The notes beneath the pieces were generated by a model. It did not search any database. It was not told the DNA's origin and saw only the letters and a program-made list of their open reading frames with translations. From Kiritimatiellales bacterium (GTDB lineage Bacteria; Verrucomicrobiota; Kiritimatiellia; Kiritimatiellales; Pontiellaceae): a DNA stretch of 45,703 bases. The stretch lies in the NCBI GenBank assembly GCA_003246265.1, contig QKAU01000033.1, positions 1 to 45,703 on the forward strand. Direction: 5' to 3'. Made by a program: the position numbers and the translations under genes. Positions 1,400-24,212 of this stretch are shown in pieces (positions within the stretch are counted from its first letter, which is position 1; each line of letters begins with the position of its first letter).

Positions 1400-3919
1400 T
1401 CAATCCGTTTTCGAGGCTTCTTCGGGGAGTTCCTTCCCCTTGGTTGCGGTGGAGAGATTGTCGAGCCGCCAGCGCGGTTGGCGCAGGGTTCCCTCGAGCC
1501 GGATTTCGAAGATCTTGAAAATGGGGTCGGTGATGACGCGGATTACCTTGGTGATGCGGTTTTCGCTGAAGATCTGGGCCTGCAGGACCGCATCGAATCC
1601 GGCTGGCTGCGCATAGCTGCCCTGCCCCTTGGCGCTGAGGACATCTCCGTCGAGATAGAGGTCGTCCGAGAAAATCGTTCCGTTCTCGAAGCGGAAGGTC
1701 GCCTTCAGGCTCTGGATGGAAAACACGCTGAAGGAAGGGATCATCCGGCGGATCAGGTTGGAAAAGCCGTGGAAAAGCGGAAGGTCGGACAGCTGCCCGT
1801 TTTCGACGACGATGTTCCCGCCACCGTTGGCGGTGGCGAAGAAGCCGCGCCGCATGTCGGCCTCCACCGTTGCCGAGCCGGACATCTTTCCGGAGGCGCG
1901 CGAGCCGCAATCCGGATTCAGGAACAGAAGACATTGCGCGAAGTCGGCGGTTTTCACATCGGCTTCCAGCCGGTAGGGCATCGGCTCGCGATCCGGATCG
2001 ATCTGGATCGAAAACCGGCCCTTCCCCTCGCCGCCGTAGATGGCGAAGCGTGCGTCTTCGACCGCGATGCGCGGTCCCTGGCCCGCCACCTTGGCCGAAA
2101 AGGCATCCATCCGTGCGACGGGGATCTCCACCTGTGCGGCCTCGACGCTGGCGGAAAAGTCGGTGGCCCGCATCGTTCTCCAGTCGACGGTTCCCCGCGC
2201 CTCGTAGCGCACGGCACCCGCCGTGCGGATGTGTTTGCCGAAGACGCCGAGCTCCGCATAGATGAGATCCTCGACCATATCCGGCGGCAGGGTGCCGAGG
2301 GCGTCGAACGAGGCCGTATGCCGGTTGAAGTCGAGGGTCGCCGAACCTTTGAGGAAATCGGCGTCCCGCAAGGCGGCCACGGGATCGAGCACCACCACTC
2401 CGTCTTCATAGACCACCGCGGCGTTGAGCGAGGAGAGCGGTACCCCATGGAACGCGAGGTCGTTGGCCGATCCCTGGATGTCGAGCCGCAGCGTGTCCCA
2501 ATCCTCGACGTTGGCATAGAGGCGGATGTGGAGCTTCGGGGGTTCGCCGCTGAAGCGGAAACGGTCGATGACGTTGGTAGCCTCCTCGCAGAAGGAGAGG
2601 ACCTCCATGGCCAGCAGCGGATCGCAATGGCCGTCGGCCTGGACGAACAGCTCCCGTGAACGGAAATCCCAGCAAACCTCGCCCTCCGCCAGTCCGCCCC
2701 GCATGGAGCTGCCGGTTTGCGCCGATCGGTATTCCTGTCCGGCGATGCGGCACTGGAGCCCCTTGAACTCCAGTTGCCCATCGTGGCCGGCGAGCGCGCC
2801 GCGCATTCCCTTGATCTCCGTACCGCCCAGCGCGAGATCGGTCGAGGAAAACGCGCCGGCCACGTGGTCCGCAAGTTCGCGGGGGGGGCACGGGCCGAAG
2901 TCGCAATAGAGCCGGGGCAGCTTCCCGATTTCCAGCTTGGCTTCGCGGAGCAGGTCCAGCACTTTGCGCGGCAGCAACCGGAGCAGGTCGGGTGATTCCA
3001 GCGTGTTCTCCAGCCGGCCCTCGCAAAGTCCCGTTCCCAGGGTGTAGCGGCCTTCCGCCCGCAACGACTGGCTGTTCCGGGCAAGCACCGCCTGGTCGAG
3101 GTATGCCATGCCGTCGCGGTATCCGCCAACCACCCGGATTTCCTTGAAGGCCACATCGTGCAGCACGGGATTTTCCACCCGCGCGTCGATCTCGATCCAG
3201 CTTCGGGCCGGGGCGGCCACATCCAGAGAGAAGTCGACATCCAGGACGACCCCGCCGGACAGTTGAAGCAGCGCAAGGCGTTCCTCCAGCGAGGCGAAGC
3301 GGGCACCATCGAGCCAGGGCTTCATCACGGCACTGCGGGTTCCCGGGGCTGCATCATGCGGAGTGGGCAGGGAGACAGGGATGGTGCCTTCCACCCGGAA
3401 CAGGCAGCCGAGCCAGCGCAGCTTCCCCTGCTTGATCCCGACGCGATCGGGGAGGAAGGCCAGCGAGGCTTCGATCTCCTCCAGCTGGCGGCAGGCATGC
3501 CCCTCCGGAATTTCCATGCCCCACTGCACCGAAGGATGCATGGTGACGCCATAGGCCTTGACGTCCATTTTCCACGATCCCGGCGCCGTGCCGCCGCCAT
3601 CGGTTTCGGAACGGTCGAAGAAGACCTCCCGGGCTTCGAACATGGGCTGGAGGTCGTCGGGATGGCGGCTGTAGTAGCGCACGCCCTCCGCGCGCCATCC
3701 GCGCAGGGTGAGCCGGATGCCGTCGACATCGACCGGGATGCCCGCCCCGTTGGCCCGGCGCACGGCTTCGCGCAGCACGAAACCGGGAACCCCCCGCACG
3801 CGCAGGTAGACGAACGCTAGGAGGAGCAGGACCGCCGCCAGGGCCATGATTCGCACCGCCAGCCGGAAGGCCCGGTGCGCACGCACGACAAACCTTCGTC
3901 CTGGCCGGCGCGGCTTCAT
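1400..3919 (-). CDS. Large AsmA-like membrane-anchored periplasmic protein
   Basis: An 839-residue protein with a basic N-terminus, one membrane helix (about residues 22-43) and a long beta-rich remainder. The C-terminus resembles the AsmA/TamB-type C-terminal region: GSATVEADM, then NGGGNIVVENGQLSDLPLF, then an IRLEGTLRQPRW ending. Such proteins form hydrophobic grooves bridging the inner and outer membranes; characterised relatives (TamB, YhdP, YdbH) act in phospholipid transport. Its ATG overlaps the stop of the DUF4340 gene (ATGA, 3916-3919), so the two are translationally coupled; it lacks its own Shine-Dalgarno. Downstream is the DUF212 protein. AsmA-like is supported by architecture and motif style; the link to the ABC cluster is inference. 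Confidence 0.8.
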   Translation of the reverse strand: MKPRRPGRRFVVRAHRAFRLAVRIMALAAVLLLLAFVYLRVRGVPGFVLREAVRRANGAGIPVDVDGIRLTLRGWRAEGVRYYSRHPDDLQPMFEAREVFFDRSETDGGGTAPGSWKMDVKAYGVTMHPSVQWGMEIPEGHACRQLEEIEASLAFLPDRVGIKQGKLRWLGCLFRVEGTIPVSLPTPHDAAPGTRSAVMKPWLDGARFASLEERLALLQLSGGVVLDVDFSLDVAAPARSWIEIDARVENPVLHDVAFKEIRVVGGYRDGMAYLDQAVLARNSQSLRAEGRYTLGTGLCEGRLENTLESPDLLRLLPRKVLDLLREAKLEIGKLPRLYCDFGPCPPRELADHVAGAFSSTDLALGGTEIKGMRGALAGHDGQLEFKGLQCRIAGQEYRSAQTGSSMRGGLAEGEVCWDFRSRELFVQADGHCDPLLAMEVLSFCEEATNVIDRFRFSGEPPKLHIRLYANVEDWDTLRLDIQGSANDLAFHGVPLSSLNAAVVYEDGVVVLDPVAALRDADFLKGSATLDFNRHTASFDALGTLPPDMVEDLIYAELGVFGKHIRTAGAVRYEARGTVDWRTMRATDFSASVEAAQVEIPVARMDAFSAKVAGQGPRIAVEDARFAIYGGEGKGRFSIQIDPDREPMPYRLEADVKTADFAQCLLFLNPDCGSRASGKMSGSATVEADMRRGFFATANGGGNIVVENGQLSDLPLFHGFSNLIRRMIPSFSVFSIQSLKATFRFENGTIFSDDLYLDGDVLSAKGQGSYAQPAGFDAVLQAQIFSENRITKVIRVITDPIFKIFEIRLEGTLRQPRWRLDNLSTATKGKELPEEASKTD

Positions 3920-5712
3920 GGTTCGACCGGTGCCGGGGCCGTCGGCTGGGGTTCCACCAGCAGGTCGGCCGATAAGGCGGCGACAAGGATCTTGTCGAGG
4001 CTGAAGACCACGTCGCGCCCCTTGACCATGGCATAGAATCCATCGGGCGTTTCGCGACCCAGCAGGAGGACGCGACCCAGGACGTTCGTGCCCGTCAGCC
4101 CGATATGCAGTTCGAGCGAAGGTTCCGCCAAGCCGTAGGTTTCAAGGTCGCGCGGCCGGTTGGTGATGTAGGTGCGGGCCTCGATCCGTTCGAGCAGCTC
4201 CACCAGGCGGGCGGCGGCCGCGGCATCCACCCGGACGGTTCCGTTGGTTTCGGCCGGCACGAATCCGTTTTCGGCCTGCCGTTCCACCACCTGCCGGACA
4301 CCGCCCTTGACCTGGGCGATCCGGGCGATGTCCCGGCGGTCGAGCTGCCAGACCAGCTTGCTCTTGTAGACCAGGGGATCGATCGTGGCATCGGACAGTG
4401 TCGGGATGTTGATACGGCATGCGGCGGTCTCGCCTCCGCGCCGTACCAGCAGTCCGTCGCGCTTGCCGTTGCCAGGTAGAACCTCGATGCGGTTCGTGCG
4501 CCCAAGGGCCGAGGCACCGAACGAAAGCGTCCAGTCCGGGGCCGTCCCGCCGCTGCCGGGGATATCGAATTCAATGATGACTGCGCGCTTCCAGATTTCG
4601 ATCAGGTTCTGGACGGCCTGTCCGTCGGCCTCCCATGCCGCGGGGCTGGCCACGTGCCAGGTGCCCTTGCCGTCGCTGGCCAGTTCCAGCCGCTCGGTGC
4701 TCCGGGCGATGGTGATCGAGTCGATGGATGCGGCGGGAGTCGAGAGCAGGCCGACATCGCGGAAGCGTTCGGCGGGGATGTCCAGCAGCTCCATGATGTT
4801 GGAGTTGACGGCGAACACGGAGGTGTCGTCGGCGCGGCGGGCGTAGACCATGCCGGGGTGGCCGGGGTAGGCGTCGCCGAGGACCAGCATGCGGGAGGAA
4901 CCGTCGGCGCTGCCGAGGGAGATCTGCTTGATTTCGCCCTGGAGGCCGTAGACCGAGAAGTCGGAGACGTTGTCGGCCACGAAATCCTCGATCCGCAGCG
5001 CGCGAAGGCGGTCGATGAAGCCATCCACCGCCGCGGGGTCGGCCGGGGCCGCCACGGGCTGCTGCAGGTTCCATTCCGCCTGGCCGCTCTTCAGGATCTG
5101 GATGAAGCCGCCGGCGCCCCGGATTTCGACGCGCCGCACGCTGGTGGCTTCGCCATGGAAGAGGAGGGTATCGCGCAGGCGCTCGGCATCGAACGGCACG
5201 ACGGCGAGCAGCTTGTCGGAGATGGTATAGATTTCGTCCGAACCCTCCTTCCTGAGGTAGAGCATATTGCCCAGCGGAGTCTGCCTGCCGATCTGCCAGG
5301 CATGCCGGCCCTTGTTGTCGACCCCGACGATCTCGATCGCGGGCTGGTCGAAGCCGTACTCCGCCGGATCGACCCCCCGGATGCGCAGGTGCTTGGAGGT
5401 GATGGTCGTGCCCTTGCCGAGCCCGTTGAGGCCGGCCACGGTGTGGAGTACCTTGGCGGTATCGGCGCGGCCCATGCCCTTTTCGGGGTTGCCGGTCAGC
5501 CATACACCGCCCTGCTGCCTGCATTCGACCACGTCGTTGGTGATCCGGAACTGCAGCGCGGTAAGCGTGGCGGGATCCAGGTCGAAGATCTTCCGCATCT
5601 CCTGTTCCTTCGAGGGCGTGCGGGCGCGCCACGTCTCCTGGAACCAGATGAAGCCGCCCAGCACCACGATGGTTGCCAGGATCCGCAAGGTTGATCGATG
5701 GTTGCCGGCCAT
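3916..5712 (-). CDS. DUF4340 domain protein, membrane anchored
   Basis: A 598-residue protein with one N-terminal membrane helix (about residues 9-24) and a periplasmic region of the DUF4340 family, a domain regularly found beside GldG-type ABC accessory proteins. The sequence reads as several successive modules, each with a hydrophobic strand, a GxW patch and an acidic helix pair: about residues 45-200, 205-340, 345-455 and 460-590. The start at 5712 is supported by AGGAGG about 10 bases upstream. It begins 3 bases after the GldG-like gene ends and overlaps the AsmA-like gene by 4 bases. Biochemical function is unknown; it presumably works with the ABC transporter upstream. Confidence 0.9.
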   Translation of the reverse strand: MAGNHRSTLRILATIVVLGGFIWFQETWRARTPSKEQEMRKIFDLDPATLTALQFRITNDVVECRQQGGVWLTGNPEKGMGRADTAKVLHTVAGLNGLGKGTTITSKHLRIRGVDPAEYGFDQPAIEIVGVDNKGRHAWQIGRQTPLGNMLYLRKEGSDEIYTISDKLLAVVPFDAERLRDTLLFHGEATSVRRVEIRGAGGFIQILKSGQAEWNLQQPVAAPADPAAVDGFIDRLRALRIEDFVADNVSDFSVYGLQGEIKQISLGSADGSSRMLVLGDAYPGHPGMVYARRADDTSVFAVNSNIMELLDIPAERFRDVGLLSTPAASIDSITIARSTERLELASDGKGTWHVASPAAWEADGQAVQNLIEIWKRAVIIEFDIPGSGGTAPDWTLSFGASALGRTNRIEVLPGNGKRDGLLVRRGGETAACRINIPTLSDATIDPLVYKSKLVWQLDRRDIARIAQVKGGVRQVVERQAENGFVPAETNGTVRVDAAAAARLVELLERIEARTYITNRPRDLETYGLAEPSLELHIGLTGTNVLGRVLLLGRETPDGFYAMVKGRDVVFSLDKILVAALSADLLVEPQPTAPAPVEP

Positions 5713-21554: not shown

Positions 21555-22058
21555 TCAAAGGATTCCGGTGCGGCCCAGCTCCCGAAAGATGCGTTCGACT
21601 TCCGCATGGGAGGCATCGATGAAGTCCTCGTAGTCCGCGGTATTCTGCCCGGTGGGGTCGGGAATATCGTGTATCTCGTCCGGATCGCCGCTCCACAGGT
21701 ATTCCATCATGCGAAAGGTCTTTTCTCTGGCTTCGGGAAATCGTGCGATGATCTCATCCTTCTGGTACTGCTCCATCACCAGGATGGCATCGGCCTTTCG
21801 TATGGTTTTCGAGGTCAGGGGATCCGAGCGATGGCCCTTGAGGCTGAAACCGTGGATCCGGGCGACATGCTGGACCACTTGGCTCGCCTGACCTCCATGG
21901 CGCGCACGGACACCGCCGGAAACAATGCGGATCTTCCTGCGGGCGTGGGGGAAATGTTGCCTGAGATATTGTTCCATGTAGCCATGCAGGTAGGCGCTTC
22001 GCGTAATGTTCGCCTTGCAGACGACCATGATGGTGAATTTCCTCGAAAATAGAGACAT
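21555..22058 (-). CDS. Low-molecular-weight protein tyrosine phosphatase family
   Basis: A 167-residue LMW-PTP. The P-loop CKANITRS supplies the nucleophile Cys14 and Arg20 (CX5R) at the end of the first strand (FTIMVVC). The general acid is Asp134 in DIPDPTG, in the usual C-terminal position, followed by DYEDF. Relatives include Wzb and YwlE phosphatases and thioredoxin-linked ArsC arsenate reductases; the DP loop favours phosphatase over reductase. Start 22058 gives the usual short lead-in to strand 1; ATG 22076 and ATG 22028 are alternatives, none with a strong ribosome site. It is divergent from the tandem winged-helix regulator, with two palindromes in between. Confidence 0.88.
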   Translation of the reverse strand: MSLFSRKFTIMVVCKANITRSAYLHGYMEQYLRQHFPHARRKIRIVSGGVRARHGGQASQVVQHVARIHGFSLKGHRSDPLTSKTIRKADAILVMEQYQKDEIIARFPEAREKTFRMMEYLWSGDPDEIHDIPDPTGQNTADYEDFIDASHAEVERIFRELGRTGIL

Positions 22059-22118: not shown

Positions 22119-22150
22119 CCATTCCCATACTTCATGAAGTGTGGGAATGG
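22119..22150. promoter_or_regulatory. Long palindrome, candidate operator 1
   Basis: A 32-base inverted repeat centred on TTCATGAA. The left arm is CCATTCCCATACTTCA and the right arm TGAAGTGTGGGAATGG, with only one mismatched pair. It lies 60 bases upstream of the phosphatase start and 70 bases upstream of the regulator start. It shares ACTTCATGAAGTGTGGGA, followed by A or G and TGG, with the second site. No T-run follows, so a terminator is unlikely. Confidence 0.75.
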
Positions 22151-22184
22151 TTAGGGACTTGATATTTCCAACCGCATCTCATAT

Positions 22185-22202
22185 CACACTTCATGAAGTG
22201 TG
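22185..22202. promoter_or_regulatory. Perfect palindrome, candidate operator 2
   Basis: The 18-base sequence CACACTTCATGAAGTGTG is a perfect inverted repeat. Its right side continues GGAGTGG, matching operator 1 over about 22 bases. The two centres are 59 bases apart. The site ends just before the GGAGGAGG ribosome site of the regulator gene, an ideal place for autorepression. Confidence 0.78.
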
Positions 22203-22219
22203 GGAGTGGAGGAGGTTGC

Positions 22220-22771
22220 ATGCCGGATCTGCATCCATCGTTGTGGCGAACCTGCCGGGTGCTTGCCAACGCCAACCGTGTTGGCCTGCTTTGGCGCCTG
22301 TTCGAACTCGAAGAGTCGTCCATGGGGAGGCTTGCCGAGGCGTGCGGCCTGGGTGGAAGCTCGGCCTGCATGCATTTGAGGGCGTTGAATGCCCGGGGGC
22401 TGATCCGGGCCGAGCGCCGCCGGACGCACGTGTTCTATCGTCCGGTGGCCAACCCCGAGGTGGCCCATGCCGTGGCCCTTCTGGGGGCCTTGCGCCGGAG
22501 CCATGCCGACGGGGATTCGGCTGCCAAAGTGATCAGGGCGGCGACCGCGTTCACCCATCCCCGTCGGATCGAGGTGGTGCGTTCGCTGGGCGAGGGGGCG
22601 AAGGATTTTTCGACACTGGCCGTTGAAACCGGAATCTCCGTGCCGGCACTGGCGCGCCATGTCGCAAAGCTGGCAAAACGCGATATCCTGAAACGAACGG
22701 CGGAGGGGTTTGCCCTTCTACCGCAGAGCGATCCGCTATGCGCCTGTCTGCTCAGGGCGGCGATGGCGTGA
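22220..22771 (+). CDS. Tandem winged-helix (ArsR-like) transcriptional regulator
   Basis: A 183-residue protein made of two helix-turn-helix units in series. Unit 1 (about residues 4-75) is ArsR-like: LANANRVGLLWRLFE, MGRLAEACGLGGSSACMHLRALNARGLI (recognition helix), then a wing RAERRRTHVFYR. Unit 2 (about 105-170) repeats the plan: THPRRIEVVRSLGEG, FSTLAVETGISVPALARHVAKLAKRDIL, wing KRTAEGFALL. An ArsR metal motif (ELCVCDL-type) is absent; cysteines occur singly and as CAC near the C-terminus. The start at 22220 is set by GGAGGAGG; the earlier ATG at 22193 lies inside a palindrome. Probably autoregulated through the two upstream palindromes. Confidence 0.86.
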   Translation: MPDLHPSLWRTCRVLANANRVGLLWRLFELEESSMGRLAEACGLGGSSACMHLRALNARGLIRAERRRTHVFYRPVANPEVAHAVALLGALRRSHADGDSAAKVIRAATAFTHPRRIEVVRSLGEGAKDFSTLAVETGISVPALARHVAKLAKRDILKRTAEGFALLPQSDPLCACLLRAAMA

Positions 22772-22826: not shown

Positions 22827-24212
22827 ATGAAGACGACGTTTAAGATCATGGGACTGGTTGCCGGCCTGGGGCTGGTCCTCCTGCTCTCACTGCACCTCTT
22901 CCTGCAATATGGCCTGACCCGGGCGATGCGCGAAGTCGTTCTTCCGCGCATCAGGCAGGAGACCGGTATCGACCTGCGCGTGGGAGGGCTTTCCATCAAC
23001 CTGCCGAAAGGGCAGCTGGCCATTCGGGAGATCGAGGTGCGGAATCCGGAAGGATTCCTGCTTGAAAACCTGGCATCTGTCGGGCGCGTGGTGCTGGAGG
23101 TCGACCTGCTCCGGCTGCTCAAGGATAAAACCCTCGCGGTCCATGACCTGGAGATTGAGGGGGGGGTGGTGAACATCGTGCGCGACCGGGAAGGCGTCAT
23201 GAATTTGGAACGGTTGGAAGCCGGGCTTGCCCAACCGCCCCTGTCTCCGTCCCTGCCCGAATCCGCCTCTCCAGGATCCGGCCAGCCTGCGCTGGAACGC
23301 GCTCCCGGAACCGTGCGGCAGGATCCGGTTCCCCGGCCCGTCGAGCCGTTGCCCGAGATGATTGTGGAGCACCTGAAGGGCGACGCCATCGTCCGCTACG
23401 TGGACTTTCGGTTAAACCAATACGACATCGCGCTCAGGCTGGATATCGAGGGGCGCAATCTCTCGACGGTCGCGGCAACCGACTCCGGCTGGGGCGATCT
23501 TCGTGCGACGGGGGCGTTGGGGAGCGATCGGACGAGCTTTGTGACCGATCTCGCGGTTCGGATGGCTCCGCTAACCGATCTGCAGGCCCCCTCGTTCGAC
23601 CTTGCCGGCAAGATTATGGAGATCGATCCCCGCATCCTGGAGAAGGTCTACGGCAAGGCGGGGATCCGGTCCGCGCCGTTCGGGATCGATCCCGTACTCC
23701 ATTGCCGTCGGGGTTGGTTCGAAGACTCGACGGTCTCGCTCCATCTCCGCGACGTGAAGTTCGAAGAAAAGCTGGCGAGGAGGATGGGCGGCATGGGTAC
23801 GATCGGTTCGCTGCGCTTCAGCGTTCCGGTCGGGGGGTCCTTGCAGCAGCCGGAGTTCGACCTGAGTGCGGCCATGCTGGGTGCGGTGGGTGGCAACATG
23901 CGCAGCGTCCTGGATGCTTGGCTCATGGGCGCTGCCGGGCAGCAAGGCGGGACGGGGCAGGCTCCGGCCGGAACCAGCGATGCCGCGATCGAGGCGCTGG
24001 GTGAAAAGATCGACGAGATCGGCCGGAGCGAAACGGCCAAGCGGATCTTAAAGGATTTGGCAGATGGCGAACCTTCGGCTACAAACGCGCCTTCCCCGGC
24101 CAGTTCCGACGTGCTGGTCGATCTGCTTGGCGAGCAGGTCGAGGAGATTGGGGAGAACGAGGCGCTCAAGAAGGATCTCAAGGATCTAGGGCGGAAGCTT
24201 TTTGGGAGGTAG
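22827..24212 (+). CDS. AsmA-like membrane-anchored protein upstream of plsY
   Basis: A 461-residue protein with an N-terminal membrane helix (about residues 8-27), then an AsmA/TamB-like N-terminal domain: ETGIDLRVGGLSINLPKGQLAIREIEVRNPEGF and LLKDKTLAVHDLEIEGGVVNIVRDREGVMNLERL. A Pro/Ser-rich linker follows, then a second beta domain and a C-terminal helical part with a 22-residue unit repeated twice (codons at 23994-24059 and 24123-24188). A GTG directly precedes the chosen ATG. It is on the same strand as plsY and gpsA and ends 7 bases before plsY starts. AsmA-family proteins take part in lipid traffic or outer-membrane assembly. Confidence 0.77.
   Translation: MKTTFKIMGLVAGLGLVLLLSLHLFLQYGLTRAMREVVLPRIRQETGIDLRVGGLSINLPKGQLAIREIEVRNPEGFLLENLASVGRVVLEVDLLRLLKDKTLAVHDLEIEGGVVNIVRDREGVMNLERLEAGLAQPPLSPSLPESASPGSGQPALERAPGTVRQDPVPRPVEPLPEMIVEHLKGDAIVRYVDFRLNQYDIALRLDIEGRNLSTVAATDSGWGDLRATGALGSDRTSFVTDLAVRMAPLTDLQAPSFDLAGKIMEIDPRILEKVYGKAGIRSAPFGIDPVLHCRRGWFEDSTVSLHLRDVKFEEKLARRMGGMGTIGSLRFSVPVGGSLQQPEFDLSAAMLGAVGGNMRSVLDAWLMGAAGQQGGTGQAPAGTSDAAIEALGEKIDEIGRSETAKRILKDLADGEPSATNAPSPASSDVLVDLLGEQVEEIGENEALKKDLKDLGRKLFGR

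Follow-up and report, generated by a model that had tools for sequence, protein, structure and literature searches.

Paired palindromes ahead of a tandem winged-helix regulator in Kiritimatiellales: a predicted autoregulatory operator and a place-conserved network of related sites

The window, a 45,703-nucleotide stretch of the genome of a Kiritimatiellales bacterium, contains two matching palindromes directly ahead of the gene for a tandem winged-helix DNA-binding protein. We propose that this pair is probably an autoregulatory operator, and that the related sites dispersed over the genome form a network with a barrier role and are not mainly promoter operators. The two palindromes are very probably docking sites of the adjacent protein, as suggested by comparison of its relatives and their upstream regions.

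The distal palindrome (CCATTCCCATACTTCATGAAGTGTGGGAATGG, positions 22119-22150) is a predicted extended operator site of 32 bp with one mismatched pair. The proximal palindrome (CACACTTCATGAAGTGTG, positions 22185-22202) is a perfect one of 18 bp, ending 17 bp ahead of the start codon. Neither is assigned a strand, nor is the spacer between them (positions 22151-22184), of which relatives keep the length but not the sequence. The centers lie at 22134/35 and 22193/94. A first-pass annotation of the window had described both palindromes as present here, and its separation of 59 bases is correct as the center-to-center distance. The outer arms of the distal palindrome, CCATTC...GAATGG, match most of the 30-36-bp copies that are scattered over the rest of the genome. 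The proximal palindrome of orthologs is similarly placed relative to the start codon, and relatives in the window clade carry two palindromes upstream, at about -85 and -26, with a spacing of 57-60 bp. Inspection of the palindrome-pair region revealed no sigma-70-like promoter, and no intrinsic terminator was found at the pair.

The regulator gene (positions 22220-22771, plus strand) starts with an ATG at 22220 preceded by GGAGG and encodes an ArsR/MarR-like protein of 183 aa. Pfam matches were obtained for HTH_5 (E 4.6e-8) and MarR_2 (3e-8), and NCBIfam HTH_metalloreg gave a score of 71.3 bits against a cut-off of 55. The AlphaFold2 model (mean pLDDT 94.6) revealed two winged helices, in agreement with the two HTH units noted earlier, with the recognition helix of HTH1 at residues 46-58, wing 1 at 63-74, and the recognition helix of HTH2 at 141-153. 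Each winged-helix half resembles ArsR-type repressors, with matches to SmtB, CzrA, and HlyU; the kind of protein, ArsR-like, is already known. Single-domain relatives reached a Foldseek TMq of ≤0.40, and no full-length PDB match to the tandem fold was present among the matches listed. The first-pass annotation had also noted that the sensing residues of classical ArsR proteins are not seen. This is partly right: the CxC metal motif was not seen, but among 104 relatives, Cys12 is conserved in 95%, His113 in 96%, and His147 in 91%. Because of the conservation of Cys12, a role of the family as a thiol or redox sensor is possible. Cys12 (codon 22253-22255), His113, and His147, together with Arg13, Arg20, and Arg116, are nearly invariant across the 104 regulators.

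A gene for an LMW phosphotyrosine phosphatase-like protein (positions 21555-22031, minus strand; PF01451, E 4.5e-19) is divergent from the regulator gene and shares the operator region with it. An AsmA/DUF748-like gene (positions 22827-24212, plus strand) lies downstream of the regulator and is a conserved neighbor. We refer to the window's genome as G000 and to its relatives by handles of the same form; phosphatase-regulator synteny is kept in G000, G005, G024, and G027. Control of the phosphatase by the palindrome pair may be supposed solely from the shared divergent region.

Homologs of the regulator (E ≤ 1e-3) were found in 35 of 58 related genomes, with up to 8 matches per genome, and its close relatives belong to Kiritimatiellales, Pontiellaceae, Verrucomicrobia, 'Lentisphaerae', and one Planctomycetota MAG. 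The first-pass annotation had proposed a comparison of orthologous intergenic regions. A palindrome of the type YCAYACNTNNNNANGTRTGR lies no more than 150 bp upstream in 84 of the 103 non-redundant regulators for which sufficient upstream DNA was available, compared to 2.2% of shuffled upstreams. The operator cores differ between paralogs (CTTCATGAAG in the window, CATTGCAATG in G027, CTTGCATAAG in G005, also CCTCTAGAGG and others), and the spacing is about 31-45 or 79-83 bp in other clades versus 57-60 bp in the window clade. Members of the family have multiplied in Kiritimatiellota and in other PVC bacteria, and most of them have a palindrome of their own. The G005 regulator of the CCTCACAAGG family seems to be truncated or frameshifted after HTH1 (L276, about 3470-3940; G005:C3:531769-532239); several sites of this family persist in G005, and a pair spaced 45 bp apart precedes the seemingly broken regulator.

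Co-variation was measured as mutual information between operator positions (h, the distance from the center) and protein columns in 83 regulator-operator pairs, using representatives below 60% identity and repeating the analysis at 48%. The residues of rank 1 were 52 for h1, 46 for h4, 69 for h7, and 142 for both h10 and h11, all of which fall within the two recognition helices or wing 1. At the 48% cut, residues 52, 69, and 142 still ranked first, and residue 46 dropped to rank 4 for h4; the co-variation in part reflects ancestry and persists below 48% identity with the exception of h4. At h7, Arg69 occurs with C in 33 of 36 cases and Met/Leu69 with T in 17 of 17. Pro142 accompanies T (15/17) and Ser142 accompanies C (15/18) at h10, and Arg142 accompanies G (6/6) at h11. 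The upstream site is therefore both conserved in orthologs and co-varying with DNA-contact residues, as expected for the operator of the adjacent regulator; as judged from these sequences, the palindromes are cognate to it. Since residues of HTH1 track the inner bases and those of HTH2 the outer bases of one palindrome, one dimer per palindrome with both HTHs engaged is predicted, and most likely both HTHs of a protomer read the same half-site. The earlier suggestion that the two HTHs of one protein bind or bridge both sites is not borne out by this pattern. Its companion suggestion, cooperative autorepression, fared better: because the palindromes are cognate to the regulator across the 83 pairs and the paired layout is kept at 57-60 bp in the clade, autoregulation with some two-site cooperation would be the natural reading of the window pair.

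The core ACACTTCATGAAGTGT was found at 10 places in the 3.0-Mb assembly of G000 when one mismatch was allowed, and the reversed 18-mer used as a control gave 0 matches, which argues that the palindromes are not due to chance. The ten places comprise the window pair, seven others with a CATG center, and one weaker copy with an AAGA center (C29); the sole further match listed had 3 mismatches. Most dispersed copies extend into a palindrome of 30-36 bp of the type CCCATTCTCACACTTCATGAAGTGTGAGAATGGG. One copy lies within dusA, and others are found near genes for a PAS histidine kinase and PAD_porph (agmatine-deiminase-like), near an LptF/G gene, a multihaem cytochrome, and a DUF456 gene, and elsewhere. 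The seven other CATG-center copies showed no partner at 54-66 bp above chance; they are single, and the window locus is the sole paired locus in G000. Dispersal over the genome had been named in the first-pass annotation as grounds for rejecting binding by the regulator. The copies are indeed dispersed in form, but the predicted binding stands, because they are partly orthologously placed sites.

Generic sites numbered 399 in the 58 genomes, compared to 6 with the reversed pattern. The median number per genome was 15.5 with the regulator (E ≤ 1e-10) and 0 without it (p = 8e-9). G027 has 24 copies of its own core, mostly in pairs spaced 58-60 bp apart, and G024, a complete genome among relatives that are otherwise drafts, has about 26 sites. 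Paired sites have a spacing fixed at 57-60 bp and spacer sequences that are unrelated between pairs, and asymmetric centers are inverted in most pairs of G005. Since spacing and orientation are held and the spacer is not, the pairs are as expected for two protein dimers.

The sites of eight genomes group into shared neighborhood clusters, which were built by neighbor homology and may include a few loose single links. In dusA, the palindrome keeps the reading frame and is flanked by the same residues in G000, G002, G005, G009, G020, G023, G024, and G027, and in G001 it is more degenerate. The dusA cores mostly match regulator families of the same genome. G001 and G009 are regulator-free yet carry a C-type palindrome in dusA, which we read as a relic. 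At the dusA position, about ten genomes lack a site and carry a short loop. In G010 (L190, G010:C104), a long hairpin insert, TCACACTAAGCCACGAAG...CTTCGTGGCTTGGTGTGA, replaces the short palindrome at this position. Sites at the same codon with cores of different families across genomes were also observed in genes for a glycosyltransferase, a radical-SAM protein, and an amidohydrolase. Upstream of the PAS kinase, the window clade's family of sites is present in G000, G024, and G027, and another family is present in G005.

The gene context of the non-self intergenic sites of the window clade's family was biased toward convergent gaps, with 6 of 8 sites in G005, 6 of 13 in G027, and 6 of 13 in G024. 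For G005 and G027 together, the convergent share was 12/21 versus 47/346 background gaps (p about 1e-5), where the background derives from gene calls made for this analysis, with at least one G000 context miscalled. Some sites lie in divergent or co-directional gaps, and a convergent bias was not seen in the other families of G005. Given this convergent enrichment, most non-self sites of the window clade do not fit a plain promoter role. On the G024 chromosome, sites are spread over 0.81-4.10 Mb (ori at about 3.35 Mb, ter at about 1.33 Mb) with no domain restriction, and an ori/ter macrodomain system was ruled out by this map. One replichore of G024:C1 carries 12 of the 15 site loci.

In the mechanism that we propose, one homodimer would sit on each palindrome. 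HTH1 of each protomer would read the inner half-site through helix residues 46 and 52 and wing residue 69, and HTH2 would read the outer bases of the same half through residue 142. Two dimers 57-60 bp apart would then cover the start region of the regulator gene itself, probably as its repressors. The eight dispersed single sites in G000, one of them weak, would also be bound by the regulator and may act as protein-bound barriers, namely transcription roadblocks or insulators, possibly with nucleoid contacts. Such a barrier or architectural role, deduced from placement alone, is the likeliest for the dispersed sites. A broader proposal, which we regard as tentative and on balance doubtful, is that the tandem winged-helix family keeps a network of sites conserved in place (3'-3' gaps, fixed codons) in which the occupying paralog and the core are exchangeable, forming a specificity-switching set of protein-bound barriers on the chromosome unlike any known regulon, REP, or centromere-like system.

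Neither a plain promoter regulon nor an ori/ter domain system nor a mobile repeat fits all of the evidence. The pair could instead be a classical local switch, with one protein's HTHs, or a tetramer, bridging both palindromes, only the regulator and phosphatase repressed, and the other copies incidental. The position over the start region, the divergent phosphatase with its conserved synteny, and the fixed spacing of 57-60 bp are all consistent with such a switch. It is nevertheless improbable given eight more copies in the genome, the orthologous placement of such sites, and the co-variation of HTH1 and HTH2 with inner and outer bases of a single palindrome. Chromosome-organizing sites like parS, matS, Noc, or SlmA, through which the protein would shape or mark the chromosome, are unlikely but deserve more weight than the other alternatives: placement is independent of promoters, some sites are intragenic, each genome has about 15 loci, and positions are conserved. 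Against this, the G024 sites run from ori to ter without domain restriction, their skew toward one replichore notwithstanding, several distinct families coexist per genome, and the site sequence changes fast.

The palindromes might also be REP/REPIN-like mobile elements spread by a transposase, with the regulator merely adjoining two of them. Their dispersed, mostly extragenic, often 3'-3' placement and long perfect symmetry would suit such elements, as would the palindromes on both flanks of some paralog genes and the one Y1_Tnp gene in G000. This gene (C14:12449) is the sole Y1_Tnp found, its contig is without any palindrome copy, and no RAYT (Y1_Tnp) gene surrounded by the same palindromes was found. 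REPIN pairs moving as a unit are expected to share their spacer, but the spacers here are unrelated between pairs while the spacing is fixed, orthologous positions carry rewritten cores, and bases track the DNA-contact residues of an HTH protein. A mobile origin is thus a poor candidate, slightly behind the local switch, and REP/RAYT elements as the main cause were ruled out by the unrelated spacers, the orthologous positions, and the palindrome-free Y1_Tnp contig. RNA hairpins, acting as terminators or mRNA stabilizers and not as protein sites, would agree with the enrichment between convergent genes and the perfect symmetry. They are very improbable, since no terminator-like site was found at the window pair, and the fixed spacing, the position over the regulator start, and the base-residue co-variation would be unaccounted for. 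We therefore retain an autoregulatory operator with a dispersed barrier network as the preferred reading.

Dimers of the ArsR/SmtB-type family read a palindrome, and autoregulation is common among them. The regulator shares the fold of each winged-helix half with these repressors (SmtB, CzrA, NolR, HlyU, BigR) and has their HTH_5/ArsR-type domain. At 183 aa, it is not a single-domain chain of about 90-120 residues. It also differs in having two winged helices per chain and no visible CxC metal motif, in a palindrome of 24-36 bp apparently read by both HTHs, and in dispersed sites off promoters. ParB-parS, MatP-matS, Noc, and SlmA use low-copy, mostly palindromic sites in any gene direction, some inside genes, and the present sites are alike in all these respects. 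Unlike those systems, they are not restricted to a macrodomain in G024, fall into several paralogous specificities within one genome, and form fixed-spacing pairs. REP/RAYT (REPIN) elements (PMC3116915, PMC8266576) are likewise short dispersed palindromes, often extragenic, tied to one gene family. The gene associated here encodes a DNA-binding HTH protein instead of a Y1/HUH transposase, the spacing of paired copies is shared but their spacer is not, and positions are kept across species with cores rewritten. In paralogous transcription factor families whose operators diverge, such as the LacI-family regulons (PMC4052901), regulator and operator co-evolve and contact residues relate to operator bases, as in the present family. 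The present case differs in that most non-self sites of the window clade are off promoters and the family at an orthologous site can switch. A literature search on Kiritimatiellota, the palindrome, and the regulator found no match, and no counterpart was found to a position-conserved, specificity-switching network.

The family offers a naturally occurring code of DNA recognition by a tandem winged-helix protein, and since about a hundred regulators mostly have a legible operator, prediction of DNA specificity is directly testable. The place of the operator is conserved, to the codon in dusA, while its sequence is rewritten to follow the changing protein. A standing question on the evolution of regulation is how site sets change in step with their regulator, and one genus here provides many replicate cases.

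Two minor observations were made on individual loci. An off-pattern near-palindrome, CATACTTGAGCATGTATG, is present at both G024:C1:2135801 and G027:C12:273535, on one strand or the other. Some distant paralog genes have their palindrome on both flanks (G002:C421:3445 and 4050, G023:C229:8195 and 8758, and G048:C29:43228 and 43912), an arrangement reminiscent of RAYT genes placed between REPs.
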